Assembly (NCBI GenBank): GCA_017390475.1
Contig: JAFPBO010000022.1
Coordinates: 124,001-188,000, forward strand
Length of the DNA: 64,000 nucleotides
From: Loktanella sp.
GTDB lineage: Bacteria > Pseudomonadota > Alphaproteobacteria > Rhodobacterales > Rhodobacteraceae
Reading direction: 5' to 3'
Shown here: piece after piece, positions 38,976 through 45,401 of the stretch
Numbering within the stretch: position 1 is the stretch's first letter
Layout of the letters: the number at the start of each line of letters is the position of its first letter
Notes under the pieces: model-generated
Told to the model about the DNA's origin: nothing
Seen by the model: the letters and a program-made list of their open reading frames with translations, nothing else
The model's database searches: none
Position numbers and translations under genes: made by a program

Positions 38976-39302
38976 CTAGACCCGACGGTAAAGTTCATCC
39001 TCGACTGCGCTGCTGTCGATGCCCAATGCCTCTAGTCCGCTTTCCAGATGGTCCGCCAGATGTGGTGAGCGTTTGAGGTATTGCGCAGTCGGCGTCGTCG
39101 CCTGTTGTTGCGCCGTATGGATCGCCTCTGCCAGATCGTCGGCTTCAAAGGTGCCGCGTCCGACCCAGAAGACGGCGACCAACCCGGCCTGTTCATCTTC
39201 GTTCAGCTGATCGACAAAGCCATCAAACTCATTTTCGGCGCGATCAAGTTCGCGGGCGAGGATGATGACCTCGGCCACCTTGTCGGATGAAATTGGCAGC
39301 AT
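38976..39302 (-). CDS. DUF3775 protein
   Basis: A 108-aa acidic protein of DUF3775. The N-terminal block LPISSDKVAEVIILARELDR and the middle LNEDEQAGLVAVFWVGRGTF are typical of this alphaproteobacterial family of unknown function. An in-frame ATG eight codons upstream is possible, but AAGGAGA sits at the right distance from 39302. Confidence 0.82.
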   Translation of the reverse strand: MLPISSDKVAEVIILARELDRAENEFDGFVDQLNEDEQAGLVAVFWVGRGTFEADDLAEAIHTAQQQATTPTAQYLKRSPHLADHLESGLEALGIDSSAVEDELYRRV

Positions 39303-39374
39303 AATGGGTCTCCTTTGCGCCAGCATTCCGTTATCTTAACACGAACGGCCTTGATCTGGCGCAAAGGTTTGGGG

Positions 39375-40127
39375 CTATTTTGCGCCGAACAGCCGATAAT
39401 ACATCCAGTCCGGCATGAATTGTGACAGCCGGAACACCCAGGAAAACATCATTGGAAAGCTTTTCTTGAAGCCTTCTGTCGTCATATGTTCGAAAACCTC
39501 TTTTGCGGCGTCCTGCGGTGACATGATGAAAGGCATGTGGAAATCGTTCTTTTCGGTCAGCCGTGTCTTGATGAAGCCGGGGTTTATCAATTGGACCTGA
39601 ACGCCGGTGTTGCGCAGATCAGCCTGCATCGATTCCGCCAGCGCCATCATCCCTGCCTTGGACGAACAATAGCCGATAGCACCGGGCAGGCCTCGGAAAC
39701 CGGACAAGGACCCGACCAGCACGATATGTCCGGCATCGCGGGCAACCATGTCTTTGATCACTGACCCCACGACACGGGATGCACCAAGGAAATTCACCTC
39801 ACCCATCATGTCAGCTTTTTCATTGTCCCAGTCCTGCGACTTCATCGGCCAATAGACGCCGGCCAGATACACGACCCCATCAATCTGCCCGACCTCAAGT
39901 GCTGCTTTTTCAACTGCAGCGCGGTCGGTCACATCCACGGTCACGTAGGATGATTTGCCCGGCAGATCCTCGACCATATCTTTCAGTCGGTCTTCGGACC
40001 GCGCGGAAACGACCAGCTCTGCCCCTGCACGGCTGAGGCAGAATGCGACTTCGCGCCCCAACCCCTCGCTTGCGCCGACAACCCAGTAGCGTTTTCCTTG
40101 CCAATCCTTCACGTCATTCTCCCGCAT
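39375..40127 (-). CDS. Short-chain dehydrogenase in the RpoE-linked operon
   Basis: A 250-aa SDR. Cofactor motif VVGASEGLGREVAF, then VVYLAGVYWP in place of the usual NNAG, and the catalytic Ser (VGSLSG) with Tyr/Lys in YCSSKAG. The C-terminal FRLSQFMPDWMYYRLFGAK looks membrane-associating. It is the last of five co-oriented genes divergent from rpoE and overlaps DUF3833 by 14 nt. A GTG at 40112 is another possible start. By position it corresponds to the Rhodobacter sphaeroides gene at the end of the singlet-oxygen operon. Confidence 0.88.
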   Translation of the reverse strand: MRENDVKDWQGKRYWVVGASEGLGREVAFCLSRAGAELVVSARSEDRLKDMVEDLPGKSSYVTVDVTDRAAVEKAALEVGQIDGVVYLAGVYWPMKSQDWDNEKADMMGEVNFLGASRVVGSVIKDMVARDAGHIVLVGSLSGFRGLPGAIGYCSSKAGMMALAESMQADLRNTGVQVQLINPGFIKTRLTEKNDFHMPFIMSPQDAAKEVFEHMTTEGFKKSFPMMFSWVFRLSQFMPDWMYYRLFGAK

Positions 40128-40686
40128 AGGCCTTATCGCGCGGCCGCATTGTGGCGACCAGTTCAGCAACCTTGATCCCGAATTTACGGAACTGGCTGCG
40201 GTTCATGATCGACCCGTTTGATGTCAGATACATCCAGTCTGTAACATCAAGCGCGTGACCACCAGCCTCTTTGGCCAGTTTTATGCGGTAATTCAGCACA
40301 ACGGCAGAACCTTGCTGTTGGCCGGTGCCAGCGCCGATGACATCCGGTGCCTCGGCCTTGATGCTGCCATCGTTCGACAGGGTCAGGGTCCAGCACCTGT
40401 CCTGTTGCAGGCCGCTGTCATAGCGGAATTTTTCTACCATCGTGCCGGTGTTGCCGTCCCAAGATGCCTCAAAATCCGCAACAAATCGCGAAATCACCCG
40501 GCCAGTGGGGCCATACATCACGCCTTCACAGATGATTGGGCCGTTGAATTTGTCACGGATGTCGAACAGCGGGCCATCTGCATAATCGGCGGGTGTCTGC
40601 GCCATAAAGGATGCGTAGCGCGTCTTGGCGATCATGGCGACAACCGCCAGGGTCGCACCGATCACGACGGCGGTGATAAACGACAT
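40114..40686 (-). CDS. DUF3833 protein
   Basis: A 190-aa DUF3833 protein with an N-terminal hydrophobic anchor (SFITAVVIGATLAVVAMIA). The domain block starts FNGPIICEGVMYGPTGRVIS and includes DWMYLTSNGSIMNRSQFRKF. The family looks lipocalin-like and membrane-associated and occurs beside DUF1365 and FAD-oxidoreductase genes. It lies 3 nt after the MFS gene and overlaps the SDR, so translation is coupled. Role in lipid handling is inferred. Confidence 0.88.
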   Translation of the reverse strand: MSFITAVVIGATLAVVAMIAKTRYASFMAQTPADYADGPLFDIRDKFNGPIICEGVMYGPTGRVISRFVADFEASWDGNTGTMVEKFRYDSGLQQDRCWTLTLSNDGSIKAEAPDVIGAGTGQQQGSAVVLNYRIKLAKEAGGHALDVTDWMYLTSNGSIMNRSQFRKFGIKVAELVATMRPRDKAYAGE

Positions 40687-40689
40687 CCT

Positions 40690-41916
40690 CTATTCCTTTA
40701 GCTTGGTGCCGATCAGCAAGCCAATCGCCACCAGTTTCAAAAGCGACGGTACCAGCGCATAAAGCACCGTCAGCGTCATCAATGCCTGTTCAGGCAAATC
40801 CATTGCCCCGGCGGCAAAACCTGACCGCTCCAGCAGCGGCAGCAACACCACGGCGGCGAAAGCCAATGTGAATTTATTCACCAGCGACCACAGCCCGAAA
40901 CCTTGCCCCCCGGTTGGCGAGATTACCGACATCCGTTTGGCGAACATCGCTGGCATCAAAGTCAGGTCTGCCCCTATCGTAGCTCCGCTTAATACGCAGA
41001 TGATGGCAAAGGGGATCACATCGCCGGTCGATAATGTCAGCGTATAACCAAAGGATGCGACCGCCAGCACCATGGCTGAGAGCAGCACAGGTTTTTCTCC
41101 GAACCGCCCCGCCGACGCCGACCACAGTGGCGACGATATCGCGGCTGCTAGGAAAAACAGCACCAACAGCGCGCCTTCCCAGCCCGGGGCGCCTAGCCTG
41201 CTTTCGACGTAGAACAGGAACAATGTCGATGACACGGCCAGCGGCGTTGCATTGACCAGCGCAAGGATCAGCAGACGCCGTGCGATGGGGTCGGCAATGA
41301 TATCGCGGATTTGGGATGGTTCCTGCGTGACCCGGCCTTTCCATTCGGGCCACATGAAAAAAGCGGCAATAATCGTCACGACAGCAAACCCATAGGCAAA
41401 GACCGCAAAAGGATCGCGGGCGACATCCATCAACAGCGTCGGGATCACGGCTGCGATACAGACGCCCAGCAAGGCCCCGCTTTCGCGCCATGCCGCCAGC
41501 CGGACATGCCCGCCCTCGGCATTGCCCGCCTTACTGATACCTTGCGCATAGAAATTGATCGTTAGGAAACTGAAGGCGGTGAACAGCCCGGTGATGGTGA
41601 GCCCGAACCAGACAATCGGCGCGATGGGTGGTGGCACCGCAAACAAGCCGATCATCGCCAATGCAAGCGCAAAAGAGGTCAACAGGATCGCGATTTTCTT
41701 GAACCGCTGCAGCCTCTCACTGATCCAGCCCAGCACCGGGTCCTGCACCACATCGAACAGGCGCAACGCGAAAAGCAGCGCGCCAAGCGCGGTCAGACTG
41801 ACACCATAGGTATCGGCATAATATTTCGGCGCATAGATATAGATCGGCAAACCTGCCCCCGACAGCACCGCAGCGAACAGGCTATAGGCGGGCAGGCGTT
41901 CGGTCAGCGCCTTCAC
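40690..41916 (-). CDS. MFS (GPH-type) transporter
   Basis: A 408-aa transporter of about 12 helices, resembling the glycoside-pentoside-hexuronide branch (LLFALRLFDVVQDPVLGWIS near the N-terminus). Hydrophobic segments recur through the protein, e.g. IAILLTSFALALAMIGLFAV and VLSGATIGADLTLMPAMFA. The substrate is unknown; in this operon it could move a lipid or lipid precursor. Its ATG overlaps the DUF1365 stop by 4 nt. Confidence 0.9.
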   Translation of the reverse strand: MKALTERLPAYSLFAAVLSGAGLPIYIYAPKYYADTYGVSLTALGALLFALRLFDVVQDPVLGWISERLQRFKKIAILLTSFALALAMIGLFAVPPPIAPIVWFGLTITGLFTAFSFLTINFYAQGISKAGNAEGGHVRLAAWRESGALLGVCIAAVIPTLLMDVARDPFAVFAYGFAVVTIIAAFFMWPEWKGRVTQEPSQIRDIIADPIARRLLILALVNATPLAVSSTLFLFYVESRLGAPGWEGALLVLFFLAAAISSPLWSASAGRFGEKPVLLSAMVLAVASFGYTLTLSTGDVIPFAIICVLSGATIGADLTLMPAMFAKRMSVISPTGGQGFGLWSLVNKFTLAFAAVVLLPLLERSGFAAGAMDLPEQALMTLTVLYALVPSLLKLVAIGLLIGTKLKE

Positions 41917-42668
41917 CGGCTGACCTCATCCCTTGGCGGGGCTGGTTGTGACCGGAAGGTCGCGCCTTTCCACCACAGTTTGACCGCCTGCCAATGGATC
42001 AGCGCCAGCACCCGGCGCGACCCAAACGGGCGGCGCAAGGCCGCGCAAAGGATCGATACATTGCTGATCGGGCGGCGTTTGCCGGTCAGCGTGGCGATCA
42101 ACCCGCCATTACCACGGGTGTAATCGATCCAGACCCCAATGCTGTCTGACTGAATATCAAAACGAAAGACATAGCCGCCGTCGATCGGCTGAAAGGGCGA
42201 AACATGCATCACCTTTGTCGCCGCCAGCGTTTCTGCTTTGGTGATCGCATGCCCGTCTTCATGGCGGCACAGATAGGAATGGCGGTCGCCAAAGGTATTG
42301 GATACCTCGGCGATGATCGTCGTCAGCCCGCCCGCATCATAGCAAAGCCAGAATGACACCGGATTGAACACATGGCCCAGCACACGCGGCTGCGCCAGCA
42401 GCATGATCCGCGACGGGGCAGGGATATCATGCGCTTGCAGCACATCGCGCACCCAGACCGCGCCGCGCCCCTGTTTGGGCGCACCGCCATGGTCGCTGTC
42501 ATGCAGCGACGTCAGGTTAGCGGCGTTGCGCGCAAACAGCCATGGTGTGGTCAGCTCTGCTTCTGCATCCAGCAGCACGTAGTCGATGGAATAGCGAAAC
42601 GCGTTTTTCGTTGCGCCGCGCCGCCCGTGATAGGTCTCGCCTGCAATATGATGGACCGCTGTGCTCAC
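41913..42668 (-). CDS. DUF1365 protein
   Basis: A 251-aa DUF1365 protein. Signature segments are RYSIDYVLLDAEAE near the start and LGHVFNPVSFWLCYDAGG in the middle. It starts with a GTG at 42668 that overlaps the upstream stop (GTGA); the longer open frame reads into the oxidoreductase gene and is not homologous. DUF1365 genes travel with FAD oxidoreductases and cyclopropane-fatty-acid synthases. The R. sphaeroides homologue in the RpoE operon is needed for the singlet-oxygen response. Confidence 0.9.
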   Translation of the reverse strand: MSTAVHHIAGETYHGRRGATKNAFRYSIDYVLLDAEAELTTPWLFARNAANLTSLHDSDHGGAPKQGRGAVWVRDVLQAHDIPAPSRIMLLAQPRVLGHVFNPVSFWLCYDAGGLTTIIAEVSNTFGDRHSYLCRHEDGHAITKAETLAATKVMHVSPFQPIDGGYVFRFDIQSDSIGVWIDYTRGNGGLIATLTGKRRPISNVSILCAALRRPFGSRRVLALIHWQAVKLWWKGATFRSQPAPPRDEVSR

Positions 42669-43966
42669 TCTGCCGCCATCGCCATCCGGTCGGGGGCGTT
42701 CAGCTTGCCCACGACATCCAAGGCGCTGGAAAGACCATCCTCGTGGAACCCGTTCTTCATCCAGGCCCCGCAGAACCATGTCCGGTTGCTGCCATTCATC
42801 GCCGCCGCTGTTTTCTGCGCGGCAAGCGCGGCAAGATCATAGACCGGATGATGCAAGGTCACCTCATCCCAGATCAACTCCTCGCGGATCTGGCGGCGGG
42901 TGTTGAGCGTGACCATCAATTCCTCGCCCTTCAGCCAGGGCTGAAGCGAATTCATCCAATAGGTCAGATCAATCTCGCCACCCTGATGGCCCACAGCCTC
43001 GGAATAGACCCAGGATGACCAAACCTGACGGCGTTTCGGCATGATGGATGTGTCGGAATGCAGAACAACGCGGTTCGGCTGATAACGCACAGCGCCCAGC
43101 ATCTGGCGCTCTGCCTCTGACGGATCAATCAGCATCGCAAGGGTCTGGTCGGAATGGCTGGCAAAGATCACCTCGTCGAAATGTTCCCAATCGCCGCCTT
43201 TGGCCTTCACTTCGACCCCGGCGGGGTTGCGGCGCACGGCATCGACGGCAGCGCCAAGGCGCAATTCCACGCCGCGCTTTGCCATATCCGCGCCAAGCCG
43301 GGATACATAAGCCTGCGATCCGCCCTCCACAGTATACCATTGATGCTGGCCAGTCGCACCCAACAGCGCGTGATTGTCGAAAAACGTCATCATCGCATGG
43401 GCGGGGAAATCGAGGATCTTTTCCTTCGGCGTCGACCAGATCGCGCCCGAAAACGGCAGCAGATAGTGGTCGCGGAAATAATCTGACAGGCGCAGCTTTT
43501 TCAAAAGCCCGCCGATGGTCAGGTCCCGATCCTGACTGGCGGCCAGCCCATGTTTGTTGAAATGCAGGATGTCGCGGACCATCCGCAGAAACCGTGGGTT
43601 GCCCGCATTGCGCCGCTGGGCAAAAAGCGCGTCCAGACTGGCCAGGCCATATTCCATCCGACCCCCACCGAAAGACGCACCAAAGCTCATGTTGCTTTTG
43701 ACGACAGGCACAGCAAGCTGATCAAACAGCGCCGTCAGATGCGGGTAATTGGCATAGTTGAACACAATAAACCCGGTATCGACCTGCTGGTCGCCATTCT
43801 TGCCCGCCATCCGGGTGCGCGCATGACCGCCAAGACGGTTCTCTGCCTCAAACAACACAACCTGATGATCGGTGGCCAGTGCATGGGCCGCGCCCATGCC
43901 CGAAATGCCTGCGCCGATGACGGCAATCTTTTGCGGCACACATGGCCCGGGTCGTAAAAATGTCAC
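42665..43966 (-). CDS. FAD-dependent oxidoreductase of the singlet-oxygen/fatty-acid operon
   Basis: A 433-aa flavoprotein of the amine-oxidase fold. The FAD motif is IAVIGAGISGMGAAHALA with LFEAENRLGGHARTR. DTGFIVFNYANYPHLT and the C-terminal NRTWFCGAWMKNGFHEDGL are typical of the group that modifies membrane fatty acids. In R. sphaeroides its homologue beside rpoE (UfaD) takes part in making methylated and furan fatty acids. It begins with a GTG preceded by AGGAG and is the first gene after the minus-strand TGATCC promoter. Confidence 0.9.
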   Translation of the reverse strand: MTFLRPGPCVPQKIAVIGAGISGMGAAHALATDHQVVLFEAENRLGGHARTRMAGKNGDQQVDTGFIVFNYANYPHLTALFDQLAVPVVKSNMSFGASFGGGRMEYGLASLDALFAQRRNAGNPRFLRMVRDILHFNKHGLAASQDRDLTIGGLLKKLRLSDYFRDHYLLPFSGAIWSTPKEKILDFPAHAMMTFFDNHALLGATGQHQWYTVEGGSQAYVSRLGADMAKRGVELRLGAAVDAVRRNPAGVEVKAKGGDWEHFDEVIFASHSDQTLAMLIDPSEAERQMLGAVRYQPNRVVLHSDTSIMPKRRQVWSSWVYSEAVGHQGGEIDLTYWMNSLQPWLKGEELMVTLNTRRQIREELIWDEVTLHHPVYDLAALAAQKTAAAMNGSNRTWFCGAWMKNGFHEDGLSSALDVVGKLNAPDRMAMAAE

Positions 43967-44004
43967 TGGCTACTCCTGCTGCCTCGCTTGGGTTCTTCTT
44001 AGAC

Positions 44005-44034
44005 ACGTTACGTAGCGCGAAAAATGTCGGATCA
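44005..44034 (-). promoter_or_regulatory. RpoE-type promoter for the FAD-oxidoreductase operon
   Basis: On the minus strand, TGATCC (44034-44029), an 18-nt spacer, then TAACGT (44010-44005). The -35 box equals that of known R. sphaeroides sigma-E promoters. It points into the five-gene operon, 39 nt before its GTG start. Confidence 0.75.
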
Positions 44035-44055
44035 CGCAAAAACTTTTTCTGCGCC

Positions 44056-44085
44056 TGATCCAGCGTCAGACTAGTGGCGTAATAA
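44056..44085 (+). promoter_or_regulatory. RpoE-type autoregulatory promoter of rpoE-chrR
   Basis: TGATCC (44056-44061), 18 nt, then TAATAA (44080-44085). It is the mirror image of the divergent promoter and implies that RpoE drives its own operon. A start of transcription around 44092 follows, downstream of the first in-frame ATG at 44090. Confidence 0.8.
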
Positions 44086-44194
44086 CCATATGTTGAACGA
44101 AACACTGACCTTTGCGAAAGCTGATGCAGTTCCGGTGATGCCTGTCTATGGTAAGGCAAGCATCGCGCGGATGCGCAGCATGGGAGCAAGGCAA

Positions 44195-44746
44195 GTGACG
44201 GCAGAGGCAACGACAAAGCGGATGGCATGGGTGACACAGGTTGCCGCCGTGCGCGACCGTCAGGACAAAGCGGCTTTTGCCGAATTGTTCGCCTACTTTG
44301 CCCCACGGGTGAAATCGTTCCTCATGAAATCGGGGGCTAGCCCCGATATGGCCGAAGAATGCGCGCAAGAAGTTATGGTCACCCTTTGGAACAAGGCTCA
44401 TCTGTTCGATCCGTCCAAGGCGAGTGTATCTACCTGGATATTTACCATTGCCCGGAACCGCCGAATCGACATTTTGCGCAAACAAAAGCGTCCCGAGCCA
44501 GAGGACTTACCTTGGGGACCTGAGGCAGAGCCTGATCAGGCCGATGCTATGGGGTTGCAACAGGAAACGGAACAACTAGGTGAAGCGCTTGCCGCTTTAC
44601 CCGCAGAGCAAAGAAAACTGATCGAACGCGCCTATTTTGGTGAGTTGAGCCATAGCGAAATTGCCGCTGAAACCGGCCTGCCGCTGGGGACGATCAAATC
44701 AAGGATACGGCTGGCGCTGGAACGCCTGCGCCATACAATGAAGTGA
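44195..44746 (+). CDS. rpoE: ECF sigma factor RpoE (ChrR-controlled)
   Basis: A 183-aa group IV sigma factor. Region 2 runs from about 25 to 96 (FAELFAYFAPRVKSFLMKSG, STWIFTIARNRRIDILRK). The linker has PEDLPWGPEAEPDQAD, nearly identical to R. sphaeroides RpoE. Region 4 (LIERAYFGELSHSEIAAETG, LGTIKSRIRLALERLRH) follows. It directs the singlet-oxygen response when released from ChrR. The frame is open from an ATG at 44090, but the predicted transcript starts after it. I chose the GTG at 44195, which matches the family's N-terminus and has AAGG nearby. Confidence 0.95.
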   Translation: MTAEATTKRMAWVTQVAAVRDRQDKAAFAELFAYFAPRVKSFLMKSGASPDMAEECAQEVMVTLWNKAHLFDPSKASVSTWIFTIARNRRIDILRKQKRPEPEDLPWGPEAEPDQADAMGLQQETEQLGEALAALPAEQRKLIERAYFGELSHSEIAAETGLPLGTIKSRIRLALERLRHTMK

Positions 44747-44747
44747 C

Positions 44748-45401
44748 ATGACGATGAACAAGATCAAACACCACCTGACCGATGCCCTGCTGATGGGCTA
44801 TGCCGCTGGCACACTGCCAGAGGCGTTCAACCTTGTCGTCGCCACGCATATTTCCATGTGCGACACCTGCCGCGCTGCCTTGGCCGGATATGATGCCGTT
44901 GGTGGCGAAGTGATGCTTGACAGCGATCCTGTTTCCATGGCCGAGGATGCGTTGGCCACGGCGATGTCGCGGATCAGTGCGACCCGATTTACCGCACCGG
45001 CCAAGCCAAAACGGGCGGCTGGTATCTTCCCCGCACCATTGCGCGAATATACTGGCGGGGATCTGGACAGCGTGAAATGGCGCCGTGTCGGTGGCGGCGT
45101 CAGCCAGATGGTCCTGCCGACAGCCAGTGGCGCCAGCGTACGCTTGCTGCGCATTCCCGCAGGCACGGCGGTGCCAGACCACGGGCATCGCGGGCTGGAA
45201 CTGACACTTGTGCTGCAAGGTGCCTTTGTCGATGAAACGGACCGTTTCGCTGCTGGTGACATCGAGATCGCGAATGAAGATCTGAACCATACGCCGGTGG
45301 CAGAGGCCGGGATGGATTGCATCTGCCTCGCCGCGACGGATGCGCCGTTACGGTTCAATGGGTTCATGCCGCGTCTGGCGCAAAGGTTTATCGGGATTTG
45401 A
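44748..45401 (+). CDS. chrR: ChrR zinc anti-sigma factor
   Basis: A 217-aa anti-sigma factor that holds RpoE inactive until singlet oxygen triggers its proteolysis. The zinc anti-sigma domain has His near residues 8-9, then His34-x3-Cys38-x2-Cys41 in THISMCDTC. The C-terminal cupin domain carries PDHGHRGLELTLVLQGAF and NHTPVAEAGMDCICLAA, with the conserved His/His/Glu/His set. All parts needed for sensing are intact. It starts 1 nt after the rpoE stop; ATG 44754 is an equally possible start. Confidence 0.95.
   Translation: MTMNKIKHHLTDALLMGYAAGTLPEAFNLVVATHISMCDTCRAALAGYDAVGGEVMLDSDPVSMAEDALATAMSRISATRFTAPAKPKRAAGIFPAPLREYTGGDLDSVKWRRVGGGVSQMVLPTASGASVRLLRIPAGTAVPDHGHRGLELTLVLQGAFVDETDRFAAGDIEIANEDLNHTPVAEAGMDCICLAATDAPLRFNGFMPRLAQRFIGI

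Follow-up and report, generated by a model that had tools for sequence, protein, structure and literature searches.

A Loktanella RpoE-ChrR and furan-fatty-acid gene module with a putative clade-specific sigma-E promoter inside its MFS gene

In Rhodobacter sphaeroides, the ECF11-type sigma factor RpoE (sigma-E) and its zinc anti-sigma factor ChrR (RSP1092-1093) are encoded next to an operon for UfaD (RSP1091), UfaO (RSP1090), a GPH-family symporter (RSP1089), a hypothetical protein (RSP1088), and a short-chain dehydrogenase/reductase, or SDR (RSP1087), and RpoE-dependent promoters precede both operons. In published work on orthologues, cis-vaccenoyl chains are methylated by UfaM, the UfaM product is desaturated by UfaD, and UfaO adds oxygen from O2, closing the furan ring; the furan lipid is destroyed by singlet oxygen, ChrR undergoes degradation, and the freed sigma-E transcribes the module. 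The ufaM gene of this well-studied module lies apart from the operon, next to a photolyase gene. According to excerpts of PMC7380195, a plasmid carrying ufaM, ufaD, and ufaO is sufficient for furan fatty-acid synthesis, with RSP1087-1089 dispensable, and in-frame deletion of RSP1087, 1088, or 1089 in a delta-chrR strain leaves the fatty-acid profile without detectable change. RSP1091 and RSP1090 alone restore singlet-oxygen resistance to a whole-operon deletion (excerpts of PMC3818230). As described in these portions of the two papers, the tests covered synthesis and survival, not the fate of the furan lipid after oxidation. RSP1087-1088 are weakly induced in R. sphaeroides, with log2 values of 0.7-1.1 versus 2.0-2.2 for RSP1091 (PMC7074977).

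We analyzed a stretch of 64,000 nucleotides from a Loktanella genome (the window). Domain profiles bear out the initial annotation of an rpoE-chrR pair back to back with a divergent five-gene operon and of neighbors matching RSP1091-1087: all seven genes are intact, and they are orthologues in the identical order to R. sphaeroides. The features are as follows.

38976..39326, minus strand: DUF3775 gene downstream of the SDR gene (PF12616)
39375..40112, minus strand: classical SDR, RSP1087 orthologue (adh_short PF00106, 139 bits)
40114..40686, minus strand: DUF3833 protein, RSP1088 orthologue (PF12915, 167 bits)
40690..41916, minus strand: MFS_2/GPH-type carrier, RSP1089 orthologue (PF13347, 175 bits)
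40993..41018, minus strand (MFS sense strand): putative intragenic sigma-E promoter TGATCC-N16-CGTA, exact consensus match
41913..42668, minus strand: ufaO, DUF1365 oxygenase, RSP1090 orthologue (PF07103, 233 bits)
42665..43966, minus strand: ufaD, FAD fatty-acyl desaturase, RSP1091 orthologue (PF01593, amine-oxidase type, 77 bits; gene order)
44009..44034, minus strand: sigma-E motif of the ufaD operon, TGATCC-N16-CGTA, exact match
44056..44081, plus strand: sigma-E motif of rpoE-chrR, TGATCC-N16-CGTA, exact match
44090..44746, plus strand: rpoE, ECF11-type sigma factor (Sigma70_r2/r4; 218 aa frame)
44748..45401, plus strand: chrR, zinc anti-sigma factor with cupin domain (TIGR02451, 218 bits; PF12973)

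ChrR scores well above the TIGR02451 cut-off of 124.5 bits and keeps both an N-terminal zinc-type motif (HxxxCxxC: H34-x3-C38-x2-C41) and a C-terminal cupin motif (H145-x-H147-x3-E151), which, together with TGATCC-N16-CGTA before rpoE, mark the pair as an ECF11 RpoE-ChrR system. The rpoE ATG lies 8 nt past the -10 element CGTA, with spacing and frame kept in most relatives. On the opposite strand ufaD may start at GTG 43966 or at a GTG further on, and the genes that follow are tightly packed: the likeliest ufaO start, as judged from alignment and sequence, is GTG 42668, in a GTGA overlap with the ufaD stop; the MFS gene most likely starts at GTG 41916, in a GTGA overlap with the ufaO stop; the DUF3833 gene 3 nt past the MFS stop; and the SDR gene most likely at GTG 40112, 1 nt past the DUF3833 stop. 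The DUF3775 gene is a frequent neighbor of the SDR gene (43/80 best-matching loci, 28/95 genus loci), and we do not claim it as part of the module.

No cyclopropane-fatty-acid synthase was found within the 64-kb window, as the initial annotation had noted in predicting that the methyltransferase lies elsewhere. The genome's sole full-length match to such a synthase (E 9.6e-84) is indeed on another contig, C56, where this UfaM-type gene of the CMAS family stands directly behind a photolyase gene, and all three pathway enzymes are present in the genome, UfaD and UfaO in the window and the UfaM-type enzyme on C56. The role previously assigned to the FAD enzyme, in furan fatty acids and with a link to ChrR release, agrees with the published module. 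A search near phr-ufaM in the present genome, allowing at most one mismatch, found no sigma-E motif.

The sigma-E motif TGATCC-N16-CGTA, of which the initial annotation makes no mention, was taken from PMC5507510, as given in an excerpt of that paper. Among the 78 related loci compared from the best-matching set, the rpoE-side motif is exact in 75 and the ufaD-side motif in 27, the latter being present with at most one mismatch in 57; in this promoter-motif survey, a count of 25 covers the loci holding both ufaD and rpoE. The window contains three exact motifs against 0.05 expected, a number reached by none of 100 shuffles. The whole genome contains six, which alone prove little since chance would give about three (0.05 per 64 kb, scaled), and the reversed-motif control gave zero matches, a figure probably biased low because the reversed motif contains CTAG. 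One genomic copy stands 52 nt before a sigma-32-type gene (NF005693, 453 bits, cut-off 315), and in another genome of the genus the motif precedes a similar gene by 53 nt. In loci with a split operon (L007, L008, L016, and L020), the SDR gene or a UfaO-SDR unit carries its own exact motif.

Comparison of gene order across relatives, proposed as a check in the initial annotation, showed the identical order for 75 of 80 loci (the best-matching 80 of at least 569 relatives in a named-genome collection); three of the others lack only the MFS gene, and two have matches 0.9-1.2 kb from a contig end. At the level of genera (one genome each), 86/95 have an SDR gene of at least 110 bits no more than 8.5 kb from ufaO, regardless of strand, the sample being the 99 DUF1365 genomes minus four with fragment hits. 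DUF1365 is present in 67/68 DUF3833 genomes of the family sample and in 107/113 of the phylum sample, counted irrespective of kinship; one family genome lacks DUF1365 despite a strong match to DUF3833 (E 2e-55), and 32/99 DUF1365 genomes of the family sample have no DUF3833. Outside the family, at least 46 of 84 DUF3833 matches fall within 12 kb of DUF1365, a distance set from which 12 weak matches were left out (co-occurrence used all 113 genomes), and the present genome has a second, unlinked DUF3833 paralogue (L006). The association of the accessory genes with the pathway persists through several rearrangements. Excerpts of PMC3818230 hold RSP1089-1087 to be restricted to Rhodobacteraceae, whereas orthologues of RSP1087 and RSP1088 were already listed in Pseudomonas syringae in a portion of PMC5507510; on the spread of these two genes, our phylum sample agrees with the latter. 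The survey quantifies how closely DUF3833 and the SDR track the furan-lipid pathway. Because linkage and shared regulation tie the MFS, DUF3833, and SDR genes to the pathway, they may act after synthesis.

A membrane-anchored barrel of the calycin type is predicted for the DUF3833 protein: its model (pLDDT 90.5) has an N-terminal membrane helix and an antiparallel barrel that fold comparison matches to solved calycin-type folds, namely BFA1 (5yvf), DUF3598 (2o62), nitrobindin (3wje), and the FABP-like Ycf58 (3bdr). It differs from these in its added membrane helix and is only 8-13% identical to them in sequence; its sequence profile gave no significant match to solved structures. Such a barrel may bind a hydrophobic ligand at the membrane. 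The SDR is of the classical type, with a Rossmann glycine motif and Ser-Tyr-Lys in 81/81 sequences; Ser154, Tyr167, Lys171, and Arg57 (numbered from TTG 40169) are likewise kept in 81/81, and the protein is a putative NADPH-type carbonyl reductase. The MFS protein has the two acidic MelB-type helix-II residues, Asp55 (76/76 sequences) and Asp59 (75/76 sequences with a residue there), which we take to be the counterparts of the MelB cation ligands; it may be a cation-coupled carrier. Its score against the curated GPH model TIGR00792 is 64.7 bits, below the cut-off of 231, and we therefore file it only as MFS_2/GPH-like.

The MFS gene itself contains the third exact motif of the window, situated 300 nt from the end of the gene and upstream of DUF3833-SDR. 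The site is exact in the window and in 26 of the 77 best-matching loci with an alignable MFS gene. In a tree built without the MFS gene, these sequences include a clade in which it is exact in 24/24; in a wider clade of 32 it is exact in 26, and the other six retain CGTA. In the sample of one genome from each of 95 genera, the window is the sole case of the site inside the MFS gene. The last codon of the site, GTA, is fixed in the clade, where GTA makes up 7% of the gene's other valine codons. In a scan for synonymous constraint across the seven genes in 26 sequences (the window and L032-L056), the strongest of 1639 18-codon windows spans MFS codons 294-311 (z 6.7); ufaO was represented by 10/26 sequences only, frames with stops being skipped, and was left out of later scans. 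Second comes the out-of-frame stretch in the overlap with ufaD, which makes a useful positive control. Since the 26 sequences had been chosen with the motif already known, and since the tree places L055 outside the main clade and does not include L056, we repeated the scan on the 24 tree-grouped sequences, in which the same codons rank first of 1452 windows in six genes (z 6.5); they again rank first in 15 divergent sequences (z 6.9). The z-score is lower, 4.1-4.4, when the MFS gene is scanned by itself. No synonymous constraint was found at the site in 43 outgroup sequences (z -0.2), a set that leaves out nine sequences retaining CGTA or the exact site. The coincidence of an exact ECF11 motif with synonymous constraint leads us to infer that the site is a working sigma-E promoter, which would give DUF3833 and the SDR their own singlet-oxygen induction.

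The constraint could instead reflect codon pausing, RNA structure, or an overlapping reading frame, given that rare codons (TTA, GTA, AGT, and ACT) cluster at the site and that in 24/24 clade sequences it is spanned by an open stretch of 63-407 codons in the third forward frame. However, at 18 codons the constrained stretch has the length of a promoter, falls well short of the open frame, is centered on a motif that matches the rpoE site at all ten fixed bases, and is flanked by MFS windows with much less constraint. The spacer codons are variable, and the sister lineages L062 and L065 keep CGTA and ATCC although their third frames span just 34 and 19 codons; the sister-lineage -35 variants TGATCT, TCATCC, and TAATCC are also seen at ufaD promoters. 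We consider a non-promoter origin of the constraint unlikely.

The functions of the accessory genes can also be read in other ways. The initial annotation took the tight spacing to mean that all five genes act in one lipid pathway, so that all would help to make a furan or methylated fatty acid, and the gene overlaps, the conserved order, and the co-occurrence of DUF3833 with DUF1365 would fit this. The lipid analysis of single deletions that it called for has been published for R. sphaeroides, with null results for RSP1087, 1088, and 1089, and the three ufa genes sufficed on a plasmid (both in excerpts of PMC7380195). These null deletions and the sufficiency of ufaD and ufaO for resistance weaken the proposal, as do the 32/99 family-sample DUF1365 genomes without DUF3833; it is already largely refuted in R. 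sphaeroides, and we regard it as very unlikely here. Alternatively, the three genes may be positional passengers with an unrelated role in the envelope under sigma-E control, in keeping with the absence of a phenotype in the published tests, as excerpted from PMC7380195 and PMC3818230, with the unlinked second paralogue, and with a DUF1365 neighbor for at least 46, rather than all, of the 84 matches outside the family. The persistence of the association through rearrangements and the rarity of DUF3833 without DUF1365, even where the two are unlinked, argue against this explanation, to which we give little credence.

On balance, the locus is a conserved ECF11 sigma-E/ChrR switch joined to a furan-fatty-acid operon, with a probable clade-specific intragenic promoter and accessory genes that likely act after synthesis. 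Against this reading stand the weak induction of RSP1087-1088 in R. sphaeroides, the restriction of the internal site to one clade, and the negative published tests of the accessory genes. The three accessory proteins would handle oxidized furan acyl products, a suggestion weaker than that of the promoter. More speculatively, and with considerable doubt, the MFS gene of the Yoonia/Loktanella-type lineage may be dual-use, its hidden promoter driving production of DUF3833 and the SDR separately from the long ufaD transcript and at a higher level; both would then form a unit for the furan-lipid aftermath in which the barrel takes up an oxidized furan acyl, the proposed second messenger, and the NADPH reductase quenches it, ending the alarm. 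The survey and the negative synthesis phenotypes direct attention to the fate of the furan lipid after singlet oxygen, which bears on ChrR release and on how the response ends.

The module itself is known, and what appears to be new is the clade-specific putative intragenic sigma-E promoter, an apparent case of a stress promoter within a doubly constrained coding sequence. Within the CC-licensed PMC literature, search listings and passages of PMC7380195 and PMC3818230 yielded no description of such a promoter, the sole related remark being "potential promoter of RSP1089". The exact intragenic motif belongs to the present genome and the Yoonia/Loktanella-type clade, among compared named loci that do not include R. 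sphaeroides; the motifs before both operons, by comparison, correspond to the RpoE-dependent promoters of that species. P. syringae, as described in excerpts of PMC5507510, has the same motif, TGATCC-N16-CGTA, with PSPTO_1043/1042, and a locus from phrB (1121) to cfa (1116) that encodes orthologues of photolyase, SDR, UfaD, UfaO, and Cfa; the P. syringae orthologue of RSP1088, a lipoprotein, is encoded elsewhere. The pathway genes of P. syringae stand together behind phrB, whereas here ufaD-ufaO adjoin rpoE-chrR and ufaM stays behind the photolyase gene.

All seven genes of the module that the initial annotation had described, rpoE-chrR beside a five-gene minus-strand operon, are found in the window, and the module is orthologous to R. 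sphaeroides RSP1092-1093 and RSP1091-1087. Exact matches to the ECF11 motif TGATCC-N16-CGTA (PMC5507510) number three in the window versus 0.05 expected. The features are:

44090-44746, plus strand: rpoE
44748-45401, plus strand: chrR, with zinc and cupin motifs kept
43966 down to 39375, minus strand: ufaD, ufaO (DUF1365), MFS_2 carrier, DUF3833 and SDR genes, in that order
40993-41018, sense strand of the MFS gene: exact sigma-E motif inside that gene
before rpoE and before ufaD: the other two exact sigma-E motifs

With start codons picked from alignment and context, two of the operon junctions overlap as GTGA and the other two leave gaps of 3 and 1 nt. The module is already known and ordinary in gene content; its new element is the putative promoter predicted from sequence within the MFS gene.

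Besides the window, 26 of the 77 loci with an alignable MFS gene (L032-L056 and L068) have an exact copy of the internal site. With clades defined on a tree of five proteins other than MFS, the site is exact in all 24 sequences of one clade, and a wider clade of 32 contains 26 exact sites and 6 with CGTA only; two further CGTA-only loci, L091 and L110, fall outside. Seven of these eight CGTA-only loci retain ATCC or ATCT despite differing amino acids, and TCATCC, TAATCC and TGATCT are found at ufaD promoters too. Within the genus, about 3.0 kb separate the internal motif from the ufaD motif, as read from coordinates, in 10 of 14 genomes (13 with motif matches fully listed, plus G000). The exceptions are G518 and G515, G516 and G523, the last three having a compact operon in which MFS and DUF3833 were not matched.

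Across the window and L032-L056, the codons GTG (25 of 25 sequences with valine), ATC, TGC and GTA (26 of 26 each) are fixed and the spacer codons vary. When codon conservation was scored relative to codon use, MFS codons 294-311 ranked first (z 6.7) among 1639 scan windows from seven genes, and the runner-up was the ufaO frame overlapping ufaD. The site again ranked first of 1452 in six genes of the 24 tree-defined sequences (z 6.5), gave a z of 6.9 in 15 divergent sequences, and still led when ranked within MFS only (z 4.1 to 4.4); 43 outgroup sequences had no codon constraint there. The third forward frame across the site is open for 63-407 codons in the 24-sequence clade; in L062 it spans only 34 codons and in L065 only 19, but both loci keep ATCC and CGTA. 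We consider that the intragenic motif is probably a promoter.

Exact motifs number six genome-wide versus about three by chance, a figure scaled up from window shuffles. The fourth is located 52 nt upstream of a gene passing the sigma-32 model NF005693 (locus L031), and a comparable arrangement with a sigma-32-like gene was judged by eye at L122 in G520. This agrees with the cascade described in PMC6852236, which leads from sigma-E to RpoHII; the gene is, by analogy, a candidate rpoHII. The remaining two have no clear target gene. In L007, L008 and L020 a ufaO-SDR pair has its own exact motif, and in L016 SDR alone carries one; ufaO of that genome lies 158 kb away, adjoining rpoE-chrR, with its own exact motif.

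The rpoE ATG at 44090 (plus strand) lies 8 nt past the -10 CGTA (region 44056-44140), a gap shared by 63 of 74 related loci, and the frame from it continues into RpoE in 66 of 75 sequences, the window included. From this conservation, the rpoE mRNA may be leaderless, and RpoE may carry an N-terminal extension of about 40 residues, nearly constant in length and variable in sequence.

The full window gene order is present in 75 of the best 80 of at least 569 matching loci; of the other five, three lack MFS and two match near a contig end. In a survey of one genome per genus (95 loci), the genes near ufaO were ufaD (92), SDR (86), MFS (58), DUF3833 (57) and ufaM (34), in architectures that include the window type and the window type without MFS. 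Another is ufaD-ufaO-ufaM-SDR, which in three genomes congeneric with the window (L113, L114, L115) replaces the window type. Their UfaM proteins are divergent (38-41% identity), as if the entire furan-lipid cassette had been exchanged. L007, L008, L020 and L210 combine ufaD-ufaM-chalcone-isomerase-like-MFS-DUF3833 with a divergent ufaO-SDR pair. The chalcone-isomerase-like protein encoded within such operons (L007:6592-7185, minus strand; PF16036 at 20.3 bits, under its cut-off of 27) has matches in 9 of 95 loci; folds of this kind are able to bind fatty acids. A DUF3775 gene (38976-39326, minus strand) is near SDR in many relatives (43/80 and 28/95 loci) and remains close to ufaO in L112, a rearranged genome. 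The window's genome also encodes, away from the module, a second DUF3833 paralogue whose N-terminus is lipoprotein-like (L006:7462-8001, plus strand); other genera have unlinked copies of a similar kind.

UfaD (desaturase), UfaO (the oxygen-inserting enzyme with DUF1365) and UfaM (methylase) are described as RSP1091, RSP1090 and RSP2144, respectively (PMC7380195). According to the same source, deleting RSP1087, 1088 or 1089 singly and in frame in delta-chrR left fatty acids without detectable change. RSP1091 and 1090 alone are reported to restore singlet-oxygen resistance to a whole-operon deletion (PMC3818230), and induction of RSP1088 and 1087 (log2 0.7-1.1) is given as lower than that of RSP1091 (log2 2.0-2.2; PMC7074977). 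Weighing linkage and regulation together with the predicted fold and the negative phenotypes in synthesis, we see an even chance that MFS, DUF3833 and SDR act after furan-lipid synthesis.

The methyltransferase expected outside the window is indeed present on contig C56 of the same genome (L005:5626-6834, minus strand), directly 3' of a photolyase gene (phr). UfaM-like matches (E<=1e-60) occur in 106 of 120 family-sample genomes, and among the 99 that bear DUF1365 only G068 and G111 have none at this threshold. Since phr-ufaD-ufaO-ufaM loci exist (nine in the 95-locus survey, including L149-L155), the phr-ufaM pair may be a leftover of a split operon; it resembles RSP2143-2144 of R. sphaeroides.
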